DNA of 64,000 nt from Glaciimonas sp. (GTDB lineage: Bacteria > Pseudomonadota > Gammaproteobacteria > Burkholderiales > Burkholderiaceae_D), in NCBI GenBank assembly GCA_012927625.1, contig JABBOV010000003.1, positions 558,001 to 622,000 on the forward strand, read 5' to 3'. Positions 49,716 through 61,372 of the stretch are shown here, piece by piece. The first letter of the stretch is position 1, and each line of letters opens with the position of its first letter. The notes beneath the pieces were generated by a model that was not told the DNA's origin, made no database searches, and was given only the letters and a program-made list of their open reading frames with translations. Made by a program: the position numbers and the translations under genes.

Positions 49716-49788
49716 GGCGGGTATGCCTAAAAATGCTATGTTTTCCGCATTATTTCATTAATAAAAATAAAATACGGCGTCCAGTACT
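49716..49788 (+). repeat. 73-bp intergenic repeat, copy 5
   Basis: Begins CGGGTATGCCTAAAAATGCT (one base into the listed interval), has TTTTCCGCATTATTTCATTA as its middle and AAAATACGGCGTCCAGTACT as tail. It lies between the convergent genes dciA and ftrD, and its last bases touch the ftrD stop codon. Confidence 0.72.
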
Positions 49789-51160
49789 ACCAGATCCAGA
49801 ACATCAGCACCCAGTTGACATCGACTAGTGCCAGCGCCAGTGCGAACACACCTAGCGCCGCCATCCGTTGCAATCTAGTCGTAGCGTACTGGTGGGCAAT
49901 ACCCACTGCCAGCCTGAACGACCAGAGACTGGCGCCGATAAGCAGTATCAGCCGCAGGTCACTGATCCAGAACACCGGTACTCCATCGTTTTTGAGCAAG
50001 TTGACGGTCAGCGCCGACAAGCCCAGAAACACGCCGCAACCGGCCAGTGGAATCAGCGCCTGGCACAAGTGATAAAAACGCTGGCGCTGCCACGGCCCCA
50101 GCAAGCGACTGGCCAGCCCGATGATGGCAGAGAGCGCGCAACCCATTAACACCCCCATGCCCAGAATGTAGCTCGCCACCAGGCTGCCATCAAGCCAGGA
50201 AAAGACATCGCGCTGCATCGGATAATTGGTCAACAGCCACCACGGCGCGTTCTCGGCGAACGGCCACAGGATGTCGCGCTCAATCAGCCATCCGGCAGCC
50301 AATTGCTTGACCTCAATGAAATGCGGATTGACGCCCCACTGAAAAGCCCCAAGCGCGATGCCGAGCAGACCGAACAGGATCAGCACGCTTTGCCAGCCGG
50401 TAGCTAATTGCGCGCCCAGCTTGACCACTTCGTGATTCGGCGCCCGGGCGCTCAGTACAATGGCGTCGCGATGGCCGCTGCAGCGTCCACACATATGGCA
50501 ATCGCTGGCGCCTTGCATCTGGCGCATCGCCACTAGTGGCGCGCAATTGATCGGCTGAATCGGGATCACGCTATGGTAGGACTTGCGCCAAGCGTCAACA
50601 TCGACCTTGTTGTGCATCGGCGCCAGCTTGCTGAGTACCTCGAATACACCATTGACCGGGCACAGATATTTGCACCAAACCCGCTTTTCGCGTCCGTACA
50701 GATAACCGACCATGATGGCCGCTGCAGTGGAGCCGCCCAGTACCAGCAATACCGCTTTGGGGTACTGATACACGCTGACCAGCTGACCGTACAGTGTGGT
50801 CATGCTGAACGCCACAAAGGGCCAGCCGCCCCAGCGCATCCAGCGTGGAATGGCGCGGTTGCGACCCTTGCTGCTAGCCCATTCCGTCAAGGAACCTTCC
50901 GGGCACAGCACGCCGCACCAGGCCCGCCCTACCAGCAGCATGCTAAGTAGCACGAATGGCCACCAGATGCCCCAGAATACGAACTGGGCAAAAATGGTCA
51001 GATTATTCACAATGTGCGCGCTCTCGTCCGGCAGCGGCAAGACCGCCGGTACCACCAGCAACGTTACGTAAAACAGCACCACCACCCATTGCACGCGCCG
51101 TATCAGGCGACCATTGCCTTGGAGCCAGTTTCCCAGCGGGGCCAGCGTCAGCGCACTCAT
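49787..51160 (-). CDS. ftrD: Polyferredoxin of a ferrous-iron uptake system (FtrD-like)
   Basis: A 457-aa membrane protein with about eight hydrophobic helices and iron-sulfur cysteine motifs. CGVLCP (with the preceding WCG) and CKYLCP are NapH/MauN-type; the soluble cluster motif is DCHMCGRCSGH. In FtrABCD systems FtrD is proposed to supply or remove electrons for iron transport. The start at 51160 is chosen because its ATG overlaps the ftrC stop (ATGA); a start 16 codons earlier is possible. The third cluster motif lacks the fourth cysteine of a standard ferredoxin site. Confidence 0.85.
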   Translation of the reverse strand: MSALTLAPLGNWLQGNGRLIRRVQWVVVLFYVTLLVVPAVLPLPDESAHIVNNLTIFAQFVFWGIWWPFVLLSMLLVGRAWCGVLCPEGSLTEWASSKGRNRAIPRWMRWGGWPFVAFSMTTLYGQLVSVYQYPKAVLLVLGGSTAAAIMVGYLYGREKRVWCKYLCPVNGVFEVLSKLAPMHNKVDVDAWRKSYHSVIPIQPINCAPLVAMRQMQGASDCHMCGRCSGHRDAIVLSARAPNHEVVKLGAQLATGWQSVLILFGLLGIALGAFQWGVNPHFIEVKQLAAGWLIERDILWPFAENAPWWLLTNYPMQRDVFSWLDGSLVASYILGMGVLMGCALSAIIGLASRLLGPWQRQRFYHLCQALIPLAGCGVFLGLSALTVNLLKNDGVPVFWISDLRLILLIGASLWSFRLAVGIAHQYATTRLQRMAALGVFALALALVDVNWVLMFWIW

Positions 51161-51984
51161 GCTGTTGCTGGGCGACCCGAGCGCATCATCCAGCGGATTA
51201 CCAGCCAATAAGCGAAGAAAACCAGCAGGGTCAGCAGATCGGGACGGGCCCGGTAGCCGGTGAAAGAGGACACCAAACTGCCTAGTACGGAACCGTCATC
51301 GAGCAACCGGGTGGTATCCCAGACTTGCGCCACGATCACCGGCAGTAGTTGCACATCGATCAGTTTCTCCACTCCGCTCAGGAGCAGCGAACACGCCAGT
51401 AGCAGCAACAGAATTTCTGTGACACGAAAAAATACGCGCCATGAAATCAGCTTACCGCCTAATTGCAGCAGCGCAAATGTAGCGCCTGCAAGTATTACTC
51501 CCAGGCCCAGCGCCAACCAAAATTGTGTCGAGGCGAACCCATTGCTGCCCATTGCCAGGCTGGATAAAAACACCACCGTTTCGCTGCCCTCGCGCGCTAC
51601 CGCAATTGCCGCCAATGAAAACACTCCCCACCAATTTTCGGCTTGCGTGCTGACGCTTAACGCCTGCTCCATGTCCCGCTTCAAGCGCCGTCCATTGCGG
51701 CGCATCCAGAACACCATTTGGACAATCAGAACTGCCGCCACTAGCAGCATCCCGGCCATGAAGTATGCATGCCCTTGCTCCGACAGCAGATCGTTCATCG
51801 CCCCGATTCCCAGCCCGAGCAGGAAAGCCCCCGCGAGGCCCGCCAATACACCGCCCCACAGATATTTAAGGCCGCGCGCGCCGGCCGGATTGTGCGATAA
51901 CCAGGCATACAGAATGCCGACCACCAACATCGCTTCGACGGTTTCGCGCCACATTACGAATAGGATTTGAGTGAAATTTTGCAT
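51157..51984 (-). CDS. ftrC: FTR1 family iron permease (FtrC)
   Basis: A 275-aa polytopic permease of the FTR1 family. The iron-passage motifs are RETVE (13-17) and REGSE (131-135), each within a membrane helix. It transports iron across the inner membrane, probably after Fe(II) handling by FtrA and FtrB. It follows ftrB by 30 bp and overlaps ftrD by 4 bases. Confidence 0.92.
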   Translation of the reverse strand: MQNFTQILFVMWRETVEAMLVVGILYAWLSHNPAGARGLKYLWGGVLAGLAGAFLLGLGIGAMNDLLSEQGHAYFMAGMLLVAAVLIVQMVFWMRRNGRRLKRDMEQALSVSTQAENWWGVFSLAAIAVAREGSETVVFLSSLAMGSNGFASTQFWLALGLGVILAGATFALLQLGGKLISWRVFFRVTEILLLLLACSLLLSGVEKLIDVQLLPVIVAQVWDTTRLLDDGSVLGSLVSSFTGYRARPDLLTLLVFFAYWLVIRWMMRSGRPATA

Positions 51985-52014
51985 GATTGAATGATGGAAT
52001 AAATACCGGAAAAT

Positions 52015-52350
52015 TTATTGTGCGACGATGCTGCCCTGACCCACGCTGATATGAAAATCATCGAAATACTTGTACTCGCCGGGTTGCAATGGGTAAATCA
52101 CGACAAATGATGTGCCGCCGGGACTCAGCGCCTTTTCCTTACGCAATTGTTTACTCTCGAACTCGATTGCTTCGGTGCCGACATTATGAATTTCCAGTTT
52201 GAATTTCTTGCCGGCCGGCACCTGCAACACCTTCGGCGTGAAAACGCCGTTATTGCAATTCAGCCCGAAGCTCAGCAAATCCTCCCCCGCCGAAGCAGCC
52301 CCTGCCAACAATAGTGTGGCGCAAAATACACTGAATTTTTTCAACATCAC
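52015..52350 (-). CDS. ftrB: Periplasmic cupredoxin-like iron transport protein (FtrB)
   Basis: A 111-aa secreted protein with a signal peptide (MLKKFSVFCATLLLAGAASA after the first Met) and an EfeO/cupredoxin fold (KFKLEIHNVGTEAIEFESKQ; LQPGEYKYFDDFH). In Bordetella FtrB is proposed to oxidise Fe(II) together with FtrA. Located between ftrA and ftrC. Confidence 0.9.
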   Translation of the reverse strand: MMLKKFSVFCATLLLAGAASAGEDLLSFGLNCNNGVFTPKVLQVPAGKKFKLEIHNVGTEAIEFESKQLRKEKALSPGGTSFVVIYPLQPGEYKYFDDFHISVGQGSIVAQ

Positions 52351-52409
52351 ATCTCCCGAACCTGGGCCGGATCATCGGCCCGGCATGCATAAATTGATAA
52401 ATCGATTAA

Positions 52410-52949
52410 TTAATACCCACCCCTTTTACCGGTGCCGGCAAAGGTGAAATCGTAATTCACGTCAAACGGCTTGAACCACTTTGCAACGCCGGTTTCCTTG
52501 TCGACATGGCGGCCGAAGTGGGAGTTGACCGACGGCGGCAACACGGTGAGCTTCAATTGGTACTTGCCGGGGCCGGACAACTTCACGTTATCGCCATAAT
52601 GCGGACCATCGCTGGCTTGCATTGGCATCATTTCACCGGCCGCCTTGAAGTTACTGCCGACCTTGCTCAGTTCATACTTCACCACCAGATACGGAATCCA
52701 GTCGCCTTCGGCAAACGCGTTCGGATTGTCCTTGACCGCGTGGACATCGGCCTCCAGGTGAATGTCGGAAGTCTCAACTTTGCCCATCATGCCTTCAGGA
52801 TCCATCTTGATCGGTTGCAAATACACTGCGCCAATTTCCATTCCGTGCAAAATCTGGTGCTTGCCGATCGGCGTTTCAGCCGCGTGGGCGGCGCTGCTGA
52901 TAATTAATGCCAAACTCGAGAACAATACTGTGCTGAGAGATTTTTTCAC
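52410..52949 (-). CDS. ftrA: Periplasmic P19/Tp34 family iron-binding protein (FtrA)
   Basis: A 179-aa protein with a signal peptide (1-23) and a P19-type domain. Conserved metal ligands lie in GMEIGAVYLQPIKM, HLEADVHA, MPMQASDGPHYGD and SHFGRH (His and Met). It is the first gene of the operon and would capture ferrous iron, possibly with copper at its second site. A Fur box lies 51 bp upstream. Confidence 0.93.
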   Translation of the reverse strand: MKKSLSTVLFSSLALIISSAAHAAETPIGKHQILHGMEIGAVYLQPIKMDPEGMMGKVETSDIHLEADVHAVKDNPNAFAEGDWIPYLVVKYELSKVGSNFKAAGEMMPMQASDGPHYGDNVKLSGPGKYQLKLTVLPPSVNSHFGRHVDKETGVAKWFKPFDVNYDFTFAGTGKRGGY

Positions 52950-56645: not shown

Positions 56646-57785
56646 CTACACAAATACCGAAAAAATCGTCAGATCGAATAAACGCTCCACCAGCCATACC
56701 ATCGCGACCAGAACGATCAAGCCGGAGCCGCCGGTAAAAATGGCGTTGCGATAAAAGGTAGTTCTGCGGATCGCATAAGCAAGCGGTAAAAAGACCGAGA
56801 CGATTGCAAGCTGCCCGACCTCCACTCCCAAATTAAAGCCGACCAAGGCCAGCAATAATGCAGATTGCGGCAATCCCAAATCGGTCAGGACGCTGGCAAA
56901 GCCGAAACCGTGAATCAGACCGAAAGCAAACGCCACCATCCAGCGCTTATTCTGAAATAGCGGGAGCAAGTTGTTCAACGCGGCCAATACGACCGAGGCT
57001 GCGATTGCGGATTCAACCCAACGCGAGGGCAGCGTTACTACCTGAAAGGTCGCCAATGTGAGCGTGATCGAATGCGCGAGTGTAAACGCAGTGACGATCT
57101 TCATCACGTCAACGAACGACGTCTTGAAACTGTCGGAGGGGCGATGCTGCCGGTCGACTATTTTGAGTACGGCCGGCAACAGCAGCGACAATAAAAACAG
57201 GATGTGATCGAAGCCCTTCCAGATGTGCCAGATACCGGTCACAACGTAGTCGCCAAACTGCGCCAGTTTGCTGGCCTCGCGCAATACCAGAGTCTGGTGC
57301 GCGGTACCCGGTGAAAATATCGCAGTCGATGCCTGCGTGCCGGACTGCAGGTTTAGCAGACCCTTGTGCTGCGGGTCGATGTCGAACAATAAACGATAAT
57401 CGACGTCGAGCTTTTCGATCGGCGCACTGCAGGTGGCGCTAAAACGCAGCACCGAATAAGCGCCATCGCTGTGATTGTCGACCAGCTGTTGGCCGGCCTT
57501 GATCGGGCAGCTTGCGCCGGCGTTGGAAAGAGCCAAACGACCCAATGCATAGGCGGCGATGTCGCGATGCCGCGCGCGAATTTCGCCCCAGCTTAATTCG
57601 CCGTTGCCGTCCTGGTCCAAGCCGATGGCAAAGTCGAGATCGCGTAGTGCAATGTCCCATTGCCCTTCGACCATATTGTCGTTGACCTTCAGTGTCAGGT
57701 AACTGTCGCTCGGCTTGTGGGCATGGGCGGCAGCGCCCAGCAATGCGGCCGCTGCCAGTATCAGGAGTGTCAAGAAGCGCTTCAT
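56646..57785 (-). CDS. HupE/UreJ-type membrane protein with EF-hand
   Basis: A 379-aa protein with a signal peptide (1-22), a periplasmic domain (about 23-185) and five or six C-terminal membrane helices (about 190-370). The periplasmic part holds an EF-hand, DQDGNGELSWGE (57-68), with the calcium ligands in place. The membrane part has GFDHILFLLSLLLP and FAFGLIHGFGFAS, the HupE/UreJ-2 pattern of conserved His and Asp in helices. That pattern suggests metal handling (HupE and UreJ accompany nickel enzymes), but no urease or hydrogenase is near. It starts 1 bp after the TPR gene stop. Confidence 0.85.
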   Translation of the reverse strand: MKRFLTLLILAAAALLGAAAHAHKPSDSYLTLKVNDNMVEGQWDIALRDLDFAIGLDQDGNGELSWGEIRARHRDIAAYALGRLALSNAGASCPIKAGQQLVDNHSDGAYSVLRFSATCSAPIEKLDVDYRLLFDIDPQHKGLLNLQSGTQASTAIFSPGTAHQTLVLREASKLAQFGDYVVTGIWHIWKGFDHILFLLSLLLPAVLKIVDRQHRPSDSFKTSFVDVMKIVTAFTLAHSITLTLATFQVVTLPSRWVESAIAASVVLAALNNLLPLFQNKRWMVAFAFGLIHGFGFASVLTDLGLPQSALLLALVGFNLGVEVGQLAIVSVFLPLAYAIRRTTFYRNAIFTGGSGLIVLVAMVWLVERLFDLTIFSVFV

Positions 57786-57786
57786 C

Positions 57787-58977
57787 TCAAGCTCCTACTG
57801 CAAATTTAAATGCTAGCGCGTTGATCGCATGATCTTCCAAGCGGGTCTTTTTTAGCCAATCCAGCACCGGCGCGGCTGCGGCCTTGTCGTTTGCGACGAG
57901 CGCTGCTTCGAGAAATATGCGCGCGTCTGCCGGCTCTTTTTGCACTGCCCAATTGCGCTGCGCCAACTGCAATGCGAACGGTGCGCGATGCATCAACTGC
58001 AATTCAAAGCGCGCCTGTTCGCGCTGATGCACAGTGTCGCCACGCAACATGGCGGCGGCGAAACGGGAATTCAGCAAGGCGATCTGATCGGCGGCAGCAC
58101 GGTTGTCGGCCGGCTGCGAGGTGAGCGCGAGGGCAAGGGCGTAGCGCAACAACAGCGCATCGACTCGGGTCTTGTCTTTTAGTAGCCGGATCACTTCTCC
58201 CGGGCGCTTCTGATCGAGTAAAAAATCTGCGTAAGCGCCCAGCAAATAACTGTCGGCATCGTCAAGTGCCAGCGCTGTTTTGAAGTGTTCCTCTGCCGCC
58301 GGAAATTGGCCCAATCGTTGCGCCATTTCGGCCAGCAAAGTGGTGACCCAAATGCGGATGCCGGGATCGGCACCCGGGGCCATCGCAAGGGCCGATTTCA
58401 AGTGCGCATAGCTCTGGTGCGCTTGTCCATTCAGACTGGCTACGTTCGACAGACACGTAATCGTAATCAGCACCGGGGCCAGCGAGCGCAGTGCATTGCA
58501 ACTTTGCGCAGCCGGTCTATATTCGCCCATGACTTGCAGCACAGTGGCTTTGGTCAGCCACGCTTGCGCATTGTGCGGGTCGGCTTTCACGACCGCATCC
58601 AGATCGCGCAGCGAGGCCGGAAACTGATGCGTGCTTTGCAGCAGCGTGGCGCGCATCACGCGCACTTCCGCCGGTGGATCAGACTTGTCATACCAGGGTG
58701 CCAGCGCAGCTTGCGCATACCCTAGATAGCGCGGATCGCCTTCGACTCGCGACTGACTGATATAGCGTTGGGCCAGCGTCAGCGCCAGCGGCATGTCATT
58801 GGGCGATGCTGCCAGGCGGCTGCGCAAAGCCCTGAATTCCTGCTGCGCCGGATCGGCGCGTCGCGGCAAATGTTCGATCACTTCAGTATCGCTGACCGGG
58901 ATGCGCGGTGCGCTCCAGGTTGCAGGCGCAGCACCGGAAAATAGCAAGCCAATGGCCAAAACTTTGTAGAGTGTCAT
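57787..58977 (-). CDS. Secreted TPR-repeat protein
   Basis: A 396-aa protein with a signal peptide (MTLYKVLAIGLLFSGAAPATWSA start) followed by tetratricopeptide-like helical repeats, e.g. SLRDLDAVVKADPHNAQAWL and LGQFPAAEEHFKTALALDDA. No enzyme motif is seen, so it is probably a periplasmic scaffold. It forms a unit with the EF-hand HupE-like gene downstream and, behind a hairpin, with the lipoprotein and DUF4331 genes upstream. Confidence 0.85.
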   Translation of the reverse strand: MTLYKVLAIGLLFSGAAPATWSAPRIPVSDTEVIEHLPRRADPAQQEFRALRSRLAASPNDMPLALTLAQRYISQSRVEGDPRYLGYAQAALAPWYDKSDPPAEVRVMRATLLQSTHQFPASLRDLDAVVKADPHNAQAWLTKATVLQVMGEYRPAAQSCNALRSLAPVLITITCLSNVASLNGQAHQSYAHLKSALAMAPGADPGIRIWVTTLLAEMAQRLGQFPAAEEHFKTALALDDADSYLLGAYADFLLDQKRPGEVIRLLKDKTRVDALLLRYALALALTSQPADNRAAADQIALLNSRFAAAMLRGDTVHQREQARFELQLMHRAPFALQLAQRNWAVQKEPADARIFLEAALVANDKAAAAPVLDWLKKTRLEDHAINALAFKFAVGA

Positions 58978-59112
58978 GGATGCTCACGTTGCAAGAAAGG
59001 GATGCTGCCGGATGGCAGTATCGTCATGTTGACCGCAAAACAGCGGCGACAAAACAGAGGTGCCAACACATCATTTAGAAGCAATTGTGTATTGCTGTAC
59101 CCAACCCCAGCC

Positions 59113-59142
59113 GGGTGCCCCGAGCGTTTGCTCGGAGCACCC
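59113..59142. other. Strong hairpin between lipoprotein and TPR genes
   Basis: Stem GGGTGCCCCGAGC (59113-59125) and GCTCGGAGCACCC (59130-59142) with loop GTTT; one mismatch. It lies between identical 10-bp direct repeats ATTGCTGTAC (59091-59100 and 59143-59152). No T-run follows on either strand. It may block or stabilise the operon transcript. Confidence 0.6.
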
Positions 59143-59171
59143 ATTGCTGTACTACCATATTACGTAAGCTC

Positions 59172-59435
59172 TTAAATAATCTGGACCGGAGCAGTATCGT
59201 TGCGACCGGTTGGCGTGATCGAGTCGATCGGCCCAGCTTCGGTCGTATCGGACGTTGTCGCAACCACCCCTTTAACGGCATCAATGAAGGCGTCCTGTGC
59301 CGCGACCGGCTCGCCAGTATTGTTGCTCCCACTCCGGTCAAATCGATTATCGTCGCCGTTGCCACCGCAACCGGATACCAGCATCGCCAAAACGAGTGCT
59401 GAGCCGAGACCCAGTATGGATTTTTTAATGATCAT
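59172..59435 (-). CDS. Small lipoprotein of unknown function
   Basis: An 87-aa product with a lipobox (LVSGCGGN; Cys about residue 23) after a typical signal sequence. The rest is polar and rich in Thr, Asp and Gly with no recognised fold. Ribosome-binding site AAGGAG; 10 bp downstream of the DUF4331 gene, so co-transcribed. Confidence 0.82.
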   Translation of the reverse strand: MIIKKSILGLGSALVLAMLVSGCGGNGDDNRFDRSGSNNTGEPVAAQDAFIDAVKGVVATTSDTTEAGPIDSITPTGRNDTAPVQII

Positions 59436-59445
59436 GGCGGGCTCC

Positions 59446-60933
59446 TTATTTGTTGCCGGGCAGTGGCGTGTTCAGATACGGAAACACTGCTTTGAAGGTT
59501 GTCGCATCCCTGCGTACACCGTCCGTCAGCGCCAAACCGCCGGCTGGTGCATCGCCGGGTTTGCAGCCCACAGCGAAGGTATCGGTCGGCCCGGTCAATA
59601 CGCATAGCGCACCCATCGCTACGCGCAGCGTCAGATCGACCACATCATCGCCAGGACGACGGCCATTCGGGAACCCAGCCATGTCGCCGGCTGCCACGCC
59701 AAGCGAATTTTGCGCAGCTTGCACAGTCGGCACGGTAGTGGTATCCAAGCGCAGCATTTCGCTAGGTTTAACGTTTGCCGGTTGATTGACCCCTTTGATA
59801 CCGGTCAGGAATGCTGCCACCAGGTCAGTACGCGGGAAGTTGGTAGGCGCCTTGGCGGACGGGAACAGCGACTCAACCAGCGCCGGCAGCGAAGGGTTAG
59901 TGACGTAATTGAGAAACTGCGTATCGTCACGCGGCCGCGATGCGTTGAAACGGTCTTTGTCGTCCATGCCGATCACGACTTCATTGACCAACGGCATGCC
60001 CAGCCGCGAAACCTGGGCCCAAGGGCCGCCTTCTTTTACCGCATTGTTGTTGCCCGATGCAGGCGACGGATTGATCAAACGACCTTGGCGAACGCTGGCG
60101 GTGGTAAAGCCGCCGATAACTTTTTCAGTGCCATTGGTGAGACAAGAAGTAGGAACTTCGAGTGCAATGGAACTGACGTTCTTATTTTCAAGATCATTTT
60201 TGTTGCCGGTTTCCGCCCCCAACGGATTGAGATTGAACAAGTCGAATATCTGGCCGACGGCGATAAAAAACGACTCCTTGCGCTGGCCAACGAAGACCCG
60301 GCCGTCGCCGCAACCTGGAATTTTCACGTCATAGACATGCTGGTTTGCGTAGGCTTCATACCCGGTCGCGCTGCCAAAGGATTTGTCGCCGATATTGTCG
60401 ACCGGCTTGTCAAACTCTTTAGCGCCAGCCGCAGTAGTAACGGAATCCACTTGGCCGACCCGGCGGTCGCCGCGCACAATATCGACGGTGTAGGTTTCGC
60501 GCACATTCAAGGTGGCCGGATTTACGCCACTTATAACACCCGAGTTAATCAGCGGAATCAGGGTTGGCTTGCCACCTACTGTGAGAGCGGTACGTTTGGA
60601 GGTGCTCTTGAAACGGAACCGAAAGCTGATATTTTCCTTGCTGCCGCCGTCATTGACGACGTGGATTTCGTACAGCGCATTGGGATCGAACTGGTAAAAA
60701 TTCGGGCCGCCCTGAGGATCCTGGAATGGAATGTAATTCGCGATCAGGGTCACATAATCTTGTCGGCCCGGAGCGTAGCTTCGAAACATATAAAAATCAG
60801 TGCCGTCCACGCGCGACATACCGCTGATAAATGGGGCTTCGCGATGACTCGAAGCACCTGCCGGAAAACAGCTTGCCGCACTGATTGCGCCGATGGCGAC
60901 TGCCAAGGCCTTTCTGCTCAAATATTTATGCAT
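59446..60933 (-). CDS. DUF4331 domain-containing secreted protein
   Basis: A 495-aa protein with a signal peptide (about 1-27, AISAASCFPAGASS) and a DUF4331 fold beginning SSHREAPFISGMSRVDGTDF. The family has a conserved start (SSHREAP) and is exported, but its function is unknown. The start at 60933 is preferred; a TTG four codons upstream is possible. It is the first of a run: DUF4331, lipoprotein, TPR, HupE-like. A possible FNR-type site lies 170 bp upstream. Confidence 0.88.
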   Translation of the reverse strand: MHKYLSRKALAVAIGAISAASCFPAGASSHREAPFISGMSRVDGTDFYMFRSYAPGRQDYVTLIANYIPFQDPQGGPNFYQFDPNALYEIHVVNDGGSKENISFRFRFKSTSKRTALTVGGKPTLIPLINSGVISGVNPATLNVRETYTVDIVRGDRRVGQVDSVTTAAGAKEFDKPVDNIGDKSFGSATGYEAYANQHVYDVKIPGCGDGRVFVGQRKESFFIAVGQIFDLFNLNPLGAETGNKNDLENKNVSSIALEVPTSCLTNGTEKVIGGFTTASVRQGRLINPSPASGNNNAVKEGGPWAQVSRLGMPLVNEVVIGMDDKDRFNASRPRDDTQFLNYVTNPSLPALVESLFPSAKAPTNFPRTDLVAAFLTGIKGVNQPANVKPSEMLRLDTTTVPTVQAAQNSLGVAAGDMAGFPNGRRPGDDVVDLTLRVAMGALCVLTGPTDTFAVGCKPGDAPAGGLALTDGVRRDATTFKAVFPYLNTPLPGNK

Positions 60934-61372
60934 GACATGATCCAATCATTAGTAAAATTGCTAGTTGAAATGAGATTTTCATATCGCGTTGCTGATAATG
61001 ACCGTAGGTGAAATGTTGCAAATATGAACACGGCTTCAGCTAGGCAAATATACTGAATTTGACCAAAAAAAGATTCGATCGTTTGGCCGTGCCAAGCAAC
61101 TAAATTGATTTACGTCAAGCGAAGTGTTGATTTGACTAGGGGCGGCGCAGTATCGGGGCCGTGCAGTTCTCCTGTGTGCGAACAGGGCTGCGTCATAAAC
61201 TTGCTTTGAGCAGGCGCGGTGCTCCGGCTCTTAGGTACAAAGCCCCCGCGTCAAGTCACCCGCCCACGGCAGGATAAACCGATGAACGATGAAAGCTTTG
61301 GTAATGGGAATGGGGCGGTAGCGTCACTGGAAGCACCGAGCAGACGCTCAACTGTCCCAGCGACGCTCGCAT
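60934..61372. other. Spacer between the DUF4331 gene and gltL
   Basis: About 440 bp without a credible gene. It holds the FNR-type palindrome at 61105-61118 and a hairpin (CCTGT/ACAGG with flanking GCAG/CTGC, 61163-61191). No known riboswitch core was recognised. Confidence 0.5.
61105..61118. promoter_or_regulatory. Possible FNR/Anr-type site
   Basis: TTGATTTACGTCAA fits the FNR/CRP-family consensus TTGAT-N4-ATCAA with one mismatch. It lies about 172 bp upstream of the DUF4331 gene, which would be its likely target. Pattern match only. Confidence 0.35.

Follow-up and report, generated by a model that had tools for sequence, protein, structure and literature searches.

A DUF4331 operon with an anglerase-like permease in Glaciimonas: a candidate envelope system for metal capture

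The window, a 64,000-nucleotide stretch of contig JABBOV010000003.1 from Glaciimonas sp. (GCA_012927625.1, positions 558,001 to 622,000), contains an operon of four genes. They encode an exported DUF4331 protein (D), a small lipoprotein (l), an exported tetratricopeptide repeat (TPR) protein (T), and an anglerase-like permease (H), in the order D, l, T, H on the minus strand from 60933 down to 56646. The four genes co-occur beyond chance. Our tentative reading is that D-l-T-H forms an envelope system for the capture of a transition metal. The metal would most likely be Cu(II) or Ni(II), and DUF4331 would be the secreted binder; our confidence in this is slightly below even. A preliminary description of the window, made from the sequence alone, proposed that the run senses or moves a metal at the envelope. 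This is still the best-supported reading, based on the match of H to 9GCE, its HupE/UreJ_2 domain, the NicO-type permeases in the same slot, and a TonB-dependent receptor sharing the promoter motif; overall, the proposal is partly supported. The four exported or membrane proteins that it placed in one run are all present there, on the minus strand and in the order above.

Relatives of D were the best 80 of 492 in public genomes, with up to 8 kb of flanking sequence (hereafter the named loci). Gene frames in these loci were chosen by codon usage. The named loci are mostly from Betaproteobacteria near the window genome, and percentages drawn from them are therefore not phylum-wide. The closest public locus, L028, comes from a metagenome-assembled genome of Glaciimonas and shares 98% identity in D, which places the window genome close to Glaciimonas. 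Sixty-eight loci extend for 3500 bases or more past D; in 54 of them D is followed by T and then H, and in two both genes are nearby in another arrangement. A hidden Markov model built for l finds it beside D in 64 of the 68. The preliminary description expected its proposal to fail if the four genes did not co-occur in other genomes; they do, T and H standing directly after D in the 54 loci.

The association is also seen in wider draws. In a class-wide draw, DUF4331 is present in 17 of 185 genomes, and 12 of these 17 have a HupE_UreJ_2 match within about 3 kb. In a phylum-wide draw, it is present in 22 of 398 genomes, 16 of them with strong matches; 12 regions were taken from these 16, and T and H are beside D in nine. 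On plasmids, D is also present on 11 of 17 records with a near full-length H. Weak, divergent DUF4331 matches (five loci, L177-L181) have no T or H beside them; the sixth region of that set, L164, is the receptor of the window genome. Two side observations concern copy number. Several Polaromonas and Noviherbaspirillum genomes carry D-l twice, the second copy lacking T and H, and in L040 two DUF4331 copies flank an RskA/ECF pair.

H matches PF13795 (HupE/UreJ_2) with E 1.2e-51 and 174.9 bits (cut-off 24.5), and its model has a mean predicted local distance difference test (pLDDT) score of 89.6. By this model, the exoplasmic domain of H has the Ang-1 fold. Residues 23-169 align with residues 1-157 of the chain in PDB entry 9GCE, a copper-bound Ang-1 domain from a HupE/UreJ-2 protein, at Z 13.4 and a root mean square deviation of 3.0 (137 aligned residues, 18% identity), and Foldseek gives E 4.3e-6 for the same match. 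The next fold matches are the zinc-bound ZrgA (Z 10.9) and PA4063 (Z 10.2). These periplasmic zinc binders resemble the H domain in fold; unlike H, they are soluble zinc proteins that, to judge from their entries, carry no permease fusion. DUF6702 was considered as the Pfam identity of H, is below the cut-off (E 0.057), and is kept merely as a hint. Comparison of H with PDB sequences by phmmer gives no match. Residues 172-372 of H match chain A of the Chlamydomonas TOC-TIC complex 7VCF at Z 9.8, which is in the common range for helical parts.

The likeness to anglerases extends to the N-terminus. In a set of 62 H sequences (61 open reading frames of the named loci and the window H), A|H is present at the predicted signal cleavage site in all 62, so that His23 is predicted as the first mature residue. 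It is aligned with residue 1 of 9GCE. The loop DQDGNGELSWGE at residues 57-68 fits the 12-residue EF-hand pattern, with an acidic residue or Asn at positions 1, 3 and 5 and Glu at position 12, and is also kept in 62 of 62. In the tally of the EF loop and the N-terminal His, 59 sequences were found by pattern, two are visible among the three that the pattern missed, and the last is L058. In the model, the loop lies in a helix-loop-helix (helices 47-54 and 66-71) between strands 2 and 3. In agreement with the preliminary description, the last protein of the run carries an EF-hand-type loop before a HupE/UreJ-like membrane domain. Invariant residues among 28 aligned H sequences include H23, D57, E68, C93, C119, D137 and H140, and, in the membrane domain, H187, D193, H194, H238, H292 and E322.

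Anglerases, which join an Ang-1 or Ang-2 domain to HupE/UreJ-2, were described in Nat Commun in 2025 (PMC12537917). According to that paper, the copper site of Ang-1 is a single-histidine site formed by His1 and Asn41, RbAng-1a binds Cu2+ with a dissociation constant of 74 nM and Ni2+ with 220 nM, and the Ang domain is proposed to feed metal to the permease. Three helices link strands 2 and 3 of the Ang-1 domain (PMC12537917). The EF loop of H, mature residues 35-46, is part of the helical link between the same two strands. By residue count, Asn41 of 9GCE would fall in the corresponding stretch. Like the anglerases of PMC12537917 and 9GCE, H is exported and has a predicted N-terminal His, an Ig-like exoplasmic fold, a linker and HupE/UreJ_2. 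It differs in its EF-hand-type loop, as neither EF-hands nor calcium is named in the accessible part of PMC12537917. It differs also in its place in a DUF4331-TPR operon, which the same part does not mention, and in that no sequence homology of the domains is detectable. By computation, the assignment of H as an anglerase-like permease is well supported.

The same slot is filled by another permease family in other phyla. Actinomycetes and a cyanobacterium also have D, a TPR protein and a permease side by side, the permease here being of NicO type and in third place. Four annotated records from Streptomycetaceae encode D, a TPR protein and a protein named "nickel transporter"; in one of them, a sortase gene separates the first two. 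Nostoc has D, a TPR protein and a NicO-like protein. In Adhaeribacter (two plasmids) and Miltoncostaea, D and TPR are present with no annotated permease behind them. All nine relatives that cover at least 58% of the Streptomyces NicO-type permease are on plasmid records with DUF4331 within about 5 kb. Among six NicO-type proteins with a readable N-terminus, five have the signal end A|HPLGNF together with an EF-like loop. The NicO-type protein of L148 has no EF-like loop, and the A|HPLGNF/EF-like pattern was not found in those of L161 and L162.

DUF4331 is a family without known function. D matches PF14224 over positions 1-421 of 421 (E 9e-149, 496.7 bits, cut-off 27). Its start is a signal-peptide-like stretch with an A-x-A end, followed by SSHREAP. 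Across 123 distinct N-termini, Ala occupies the third position ahead of the conserved His in 118, and A-x-A|X-X-H satisfies a strict rule (A at -1; A, V, S or T at -3) in 113; twelve further D segments, partly fragments, did not fit the search pattern. The two residues before His are SS in 118, and AS and SD also occur with His kept. Even Nostoc, with SDH, and the divergent L017, which has ADH and is outside the search pattern, retain X-X-His. An X-X-His amino terminus is a Cu(II)/Ni(II) motif (amino-terminal Cu and Ni binding, ATCUN). The predicted mature N-terminus of D, X-X-His, would thus be built like a Cu(II)/Ni(II) chelator. By a looser rule, a cut directly before His is also legal in 121 of the N-termini. 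Such a cut would make His the first residue of D; a chelating end would result either way. The model of D has a mean pLDDT of 68, with low confidence for residues 19-38; a flexible tail would explain this, but so would a shallow alignment. 7UWW was considered as the fold of D (Z 8.1, 195 residues); such a score is about what the best hit usually reaches for a model that has no true match, and 7UWW is not used.

The literature search found no paper naming DUF4331 or PF14224, and nothing for "HupE UreJ" or PF13795. These zeros are weak, because PMC12537917 discusses the HupE/UreJ_2 Pfam family (PF13795) under other spellings. The preliminary description called the system possibly undescribed. 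This stands for the operon, as far as the literature search reaches, and falls for the permease type, which has been known as anglerase since 2025 (PMC12537917). The permease is therefore of a known kind, and the whole system is apparently undescribed.

The operon might instead serve the cell surface or adhesion under ECF control. DUF4331 would then be a structural exoprotein, and a metal kept by H would serve only the fold of H. Some neighbours have Ig-like or PKD domains, fasciclin and sortase genes are present in actinomycetes, D is without a fold match, and the invariant SHREAP could be structural. However, two permease types from metal-transporter families fill one slot, and the H domain matches metal-bound domains. 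We consider this explanation rather unlikely.

Regulation was compared in the 58 loci with enough flank for counts of extracytoplasmic function (ECF) sigma factors, anti-sigma factors and receptors. ECF is accompanied by RskA in 25 loci and by a ChrR-type cupin in four, and is alone in three. In the regions from the phylum-wide draw, ECF and RskA are within about 5 kb of D in 10 of 12. TonB-dependent receptors of one family are present in 16 of the 58; a phmmer search with the receptor against PDB sequences gives no match. The motif TGAATC-N17-CGTAT, with at most one mismatch, is found upstream of D in 24 of 28 RskA loci, versus 7 of 3750 shuffles. It is also found in 16 of 36 loci without a local ECF and in three of four ECF-alone loci. 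The 1.21 Mb of the 80 loci contain 39 exact sites, 27 of which are upstream of D. By map reading, the others are two before D (with its start misplaced), eight at the receptor, one at an ECF gene and one elsewhere.

Six whole genomes give the same picture, with 15 exact sites versus three for the reversed pattern. Six of the 15 are before D, four before the receptor, two before cytochrome c and three elsewhere; two of the four receptor sites are on contigs other than that of D. In relatives, co-regulation of the operon with the TonB-dependent receptor is well supported by computation. The cytochrome c sites are a separate observation: a small class I cytochrome c is behind an exact ECF motif in two Duganella genomes (L200:1701-2192 and L201:4517-4888). 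The window genome has a receptor of 53% identity on contig C24, beside TonB-ExbB-ExbD-like genes. It contains 58 sites with at most one mismatch, versus 17 for the reversed pattern; none of those listed precedes D.

The regulators could also speak for an outward metal-stress system, in which D and l sequester excess metal at the surface, H exports or buffers it, and an ECF factor responsive to metal or oxidative stress induces the operon. Such a role would suit the RskA- and ChrR-type anti-sigma factors, as well as the NicO-type permeases with long histidine stretches in the slot of H. Copper genes are occasionally nearby. A CusA/CzcA pump is convergent with the TonB-dependent receptor within one genome, and in L074:12717-14719 (Undibacterium), bufferin-type MNIO and DUF2063 genes are directly after D-l-T-H; this is one of the 80 loci, and an MNIO is also present in L085. 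Bufferin operons (MNIO, DUF2063; PMC12452194) are similar in that exported copper-handling peptides are encoded with sigma-factor genes. They differ in that the D-l-T-H proteins are unrelated to theirs. A link between bufferins and the operon was considered and set aside as anecdotal. These copper neighbours are single cases, and the TonB-dependent receptor behind the same promoter motif points to uptake; we consider an outward system somewhat unlikely. As to the metal itself, copper is slightly favoured over nickel, because 9GCE is copper-bound and single copper-gene neighbours occur.

Nickel was also considered in its own right, as a nickel/cobalt system serving hydrogenase or urease. The names of HupE/UreJ_2 and NicO, the Ni2+ binding of RbAng-1a (PMC12537917), and the presence of urease and NiFe hydrogenase in the genome would fit it. 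H resembles the HupE nickel permeases of hydrogenase clusters in the related family name of its membrane domain and in its conserved histidines, and differs by its extra exoplasmic domain and by its operon. The organism has nickel enzymes, as indicated by urease and NiFe-hydrogenase matches; these are the only ones in the genome, and they are on contigs C21 and C24, not on that of the operon. On C24, the hydrogenase matches flank a second, weak HupE-like match. To the extent tested, the preliminary description is right that no nickel enzyme lies close to the operon. Because the enzymes are on other contigs, we consider an accessory role for them highly improbable.

In some genomes, D is beside type II secretion genes. 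Such genes are present in all five Rhodobacterales plasmid records examined (of eight found), and a prepilin peptidase gene is also beside D in the four with that side in view. In Glaciimonas immobilis, a close relative of the window genome, D-l-T-H is followed by gspG, a pseudopilin-like gene, gspK and the receptor. The window genome has a full GspD. The 80 loci contain few other secretion-gene matches (L052 and L094). By neighbourhood, DUF4331 may be linked to type II secretion as a substrate. This link, the ECF sigma factor, the receptor and the N-terminal histidines were out of reach for the preliminary description, as they are found in relatives or in mature protein ends.

A metal-capture mechanism could be drawn as follows. 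D would be exported and cut after A-x-A, and its free X-X-His end would chelate Cu(II) or Ni(II), so that D would bind metal either as a secreted protein or while held at the surface. The TonB-dependent receptor of Gram-negatives might help to take up loaded D or its metal. The proteins l and T may dock D or the metal, or hand it on in the periplasm. H would then take the metal by its N-terminal His, as proposed for anglerases, and pass it to the HupE/UreJ_2 pore, while Ca2+ at the EF-hand loop might stiffen or gate the metal site. Both D-l-T-H and the receptor would, in many relatives, be switched on together by a SigK-like ECF sigma factor with its RskA-type anti-sigma factor. Computation directly shows the conserved operon, the domain match of H, the conserved residues at the N-termini, and the promoter motif with the genes behind it. 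We infer here the identity of the metal, the direction of transport, signal cleavage, Ca2+ binding, protein contacts and metal binding by DUF4331. In its fullest form, DUF4331 would be a protein metallophore, with an X-X-His grip, a TonB-dependent receptor and a calcium-gated anglerase permease under one ECF sigma factor, and a histidine-terminated permease would have been built on two permease families in different phyla; this form is unlikely.

Several observations weigh against metal capture by D-l-T-H. D and l stand without T and H in 12 of the 68 loci. Among the 58 loci, no ECF match is seen in 26 and no receptor in 42, and, at up to one mismatch, the promoter motif is present in only one of six ChrR loci. 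In the window genome, one RskA query gives no match, an empty answer that shows little. Two-mismatch promoter-like sites number 10 in the window versus 15.8 expected by shuffling; as they are not enriched, the site before D (Table 1) is a mere lead. The fold of D has no Foldseek match at E <= 0.001. By a crude cleavage score, the X-X-His site is the best in 71 of the 123 N-termini, a site further upstream in 50, and one that leaves His at position 1 in two. No sequence homology of the H domain to 9GCE was found: hhalign gives E 0.48, and a profile search at E <= 10 did not list 9GCE. The Pfam search of the window H, at E <= 1, gives no EF-hand model, so the EF-hand call is based on the loop pattern, its conservation and the modelled helix-loop-helix. 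Between the H and NicO exoplasmic domains, hhalign gives E 0.008 and a probability of 5%. Their likeness may therefore be convergent, and homology of the two, which was considered, is unsupported by profile comparison. HupE/NicO-type proteins include exporters, and ECF sigma factors in an RskA/ChrR-type context often answer stress.

The features of the operon are summarized in Table 1. The spacers are 10 bases between D and l, 194 between l and T, and one between T and H. No family is above the cut-off for l. The gap between l and T is strongly structured (z < -2) in 16 of 21 relatives in which it is at least 60 bases long. In the window, its long GC-rich hairpin perhaps sets the expression of D and l above that of T and H. 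On one flank of the operon is a glycerate-kinase-like gene, beside a gene which we take to be dihydroorotase-like, and then a metal group at 49787-52949 on the minus strand. This group, a few kb from the operon, consists of FTR1, a cupredoxin, a PF10634 Fe2+-transport protein and a 4Fe-4S membrane protein, and resembles an FtrABCD-like iron uptake set. The other flank has an amino-acid ABC transporter.

Table 1. Positions of the operon genes and related features in the window.
Feature	Position	Strand	Basis
D: DUF4331 protein, exported, 495 amino acids	59446..60933	-	PF14224, signal-peptide-like start
l: small lipoprotein, 87 amino acids	59172..59435	-	lipobox-like start
T: exported TPR protein, 396 amino acids	57787..58977	-	TPR models
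H: exoplasmic and HupE/UreJ_2 membrane domain, anglerase-like permease, 379 amino acids	56646..57785	-	PF13795
Ser28-Ser29-His30 codons of D, predicted mature N-terminus X-X-His	60844..60852	-	
His23 codon of H, predicted first mature residue	57717..57719	-	A|H conserved; aligned with 9GCE residue 1
EF-hand-type loop of H, residues 57-68	57582..57617	-	pattern, conservation, model
HupE/UreJ_2 membrane domain of H, residues 180-342	56760..57248	-	PF13795
Strong hairpin in the l-T gap, no T-run	59060..59171	-	z -4.2 versus 200 mononucleotide shuffles
Weak candidate promoter CGAATC-N17-AGTAT	61050..61077	-	two mismatches to family motif

If metal capture by D-l-T-H is true, DUF4331 would be the extracellular part of a metal-capture system in several phyla. 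Anglerases would gain partners as well as a receptor and a regulator, and what the EF-hand loop does would become testable. The promoter motif offers a direct way to define the regulon. A metallophore DUF4331, if it exists, would be the protein counterpart of a siderophore system.

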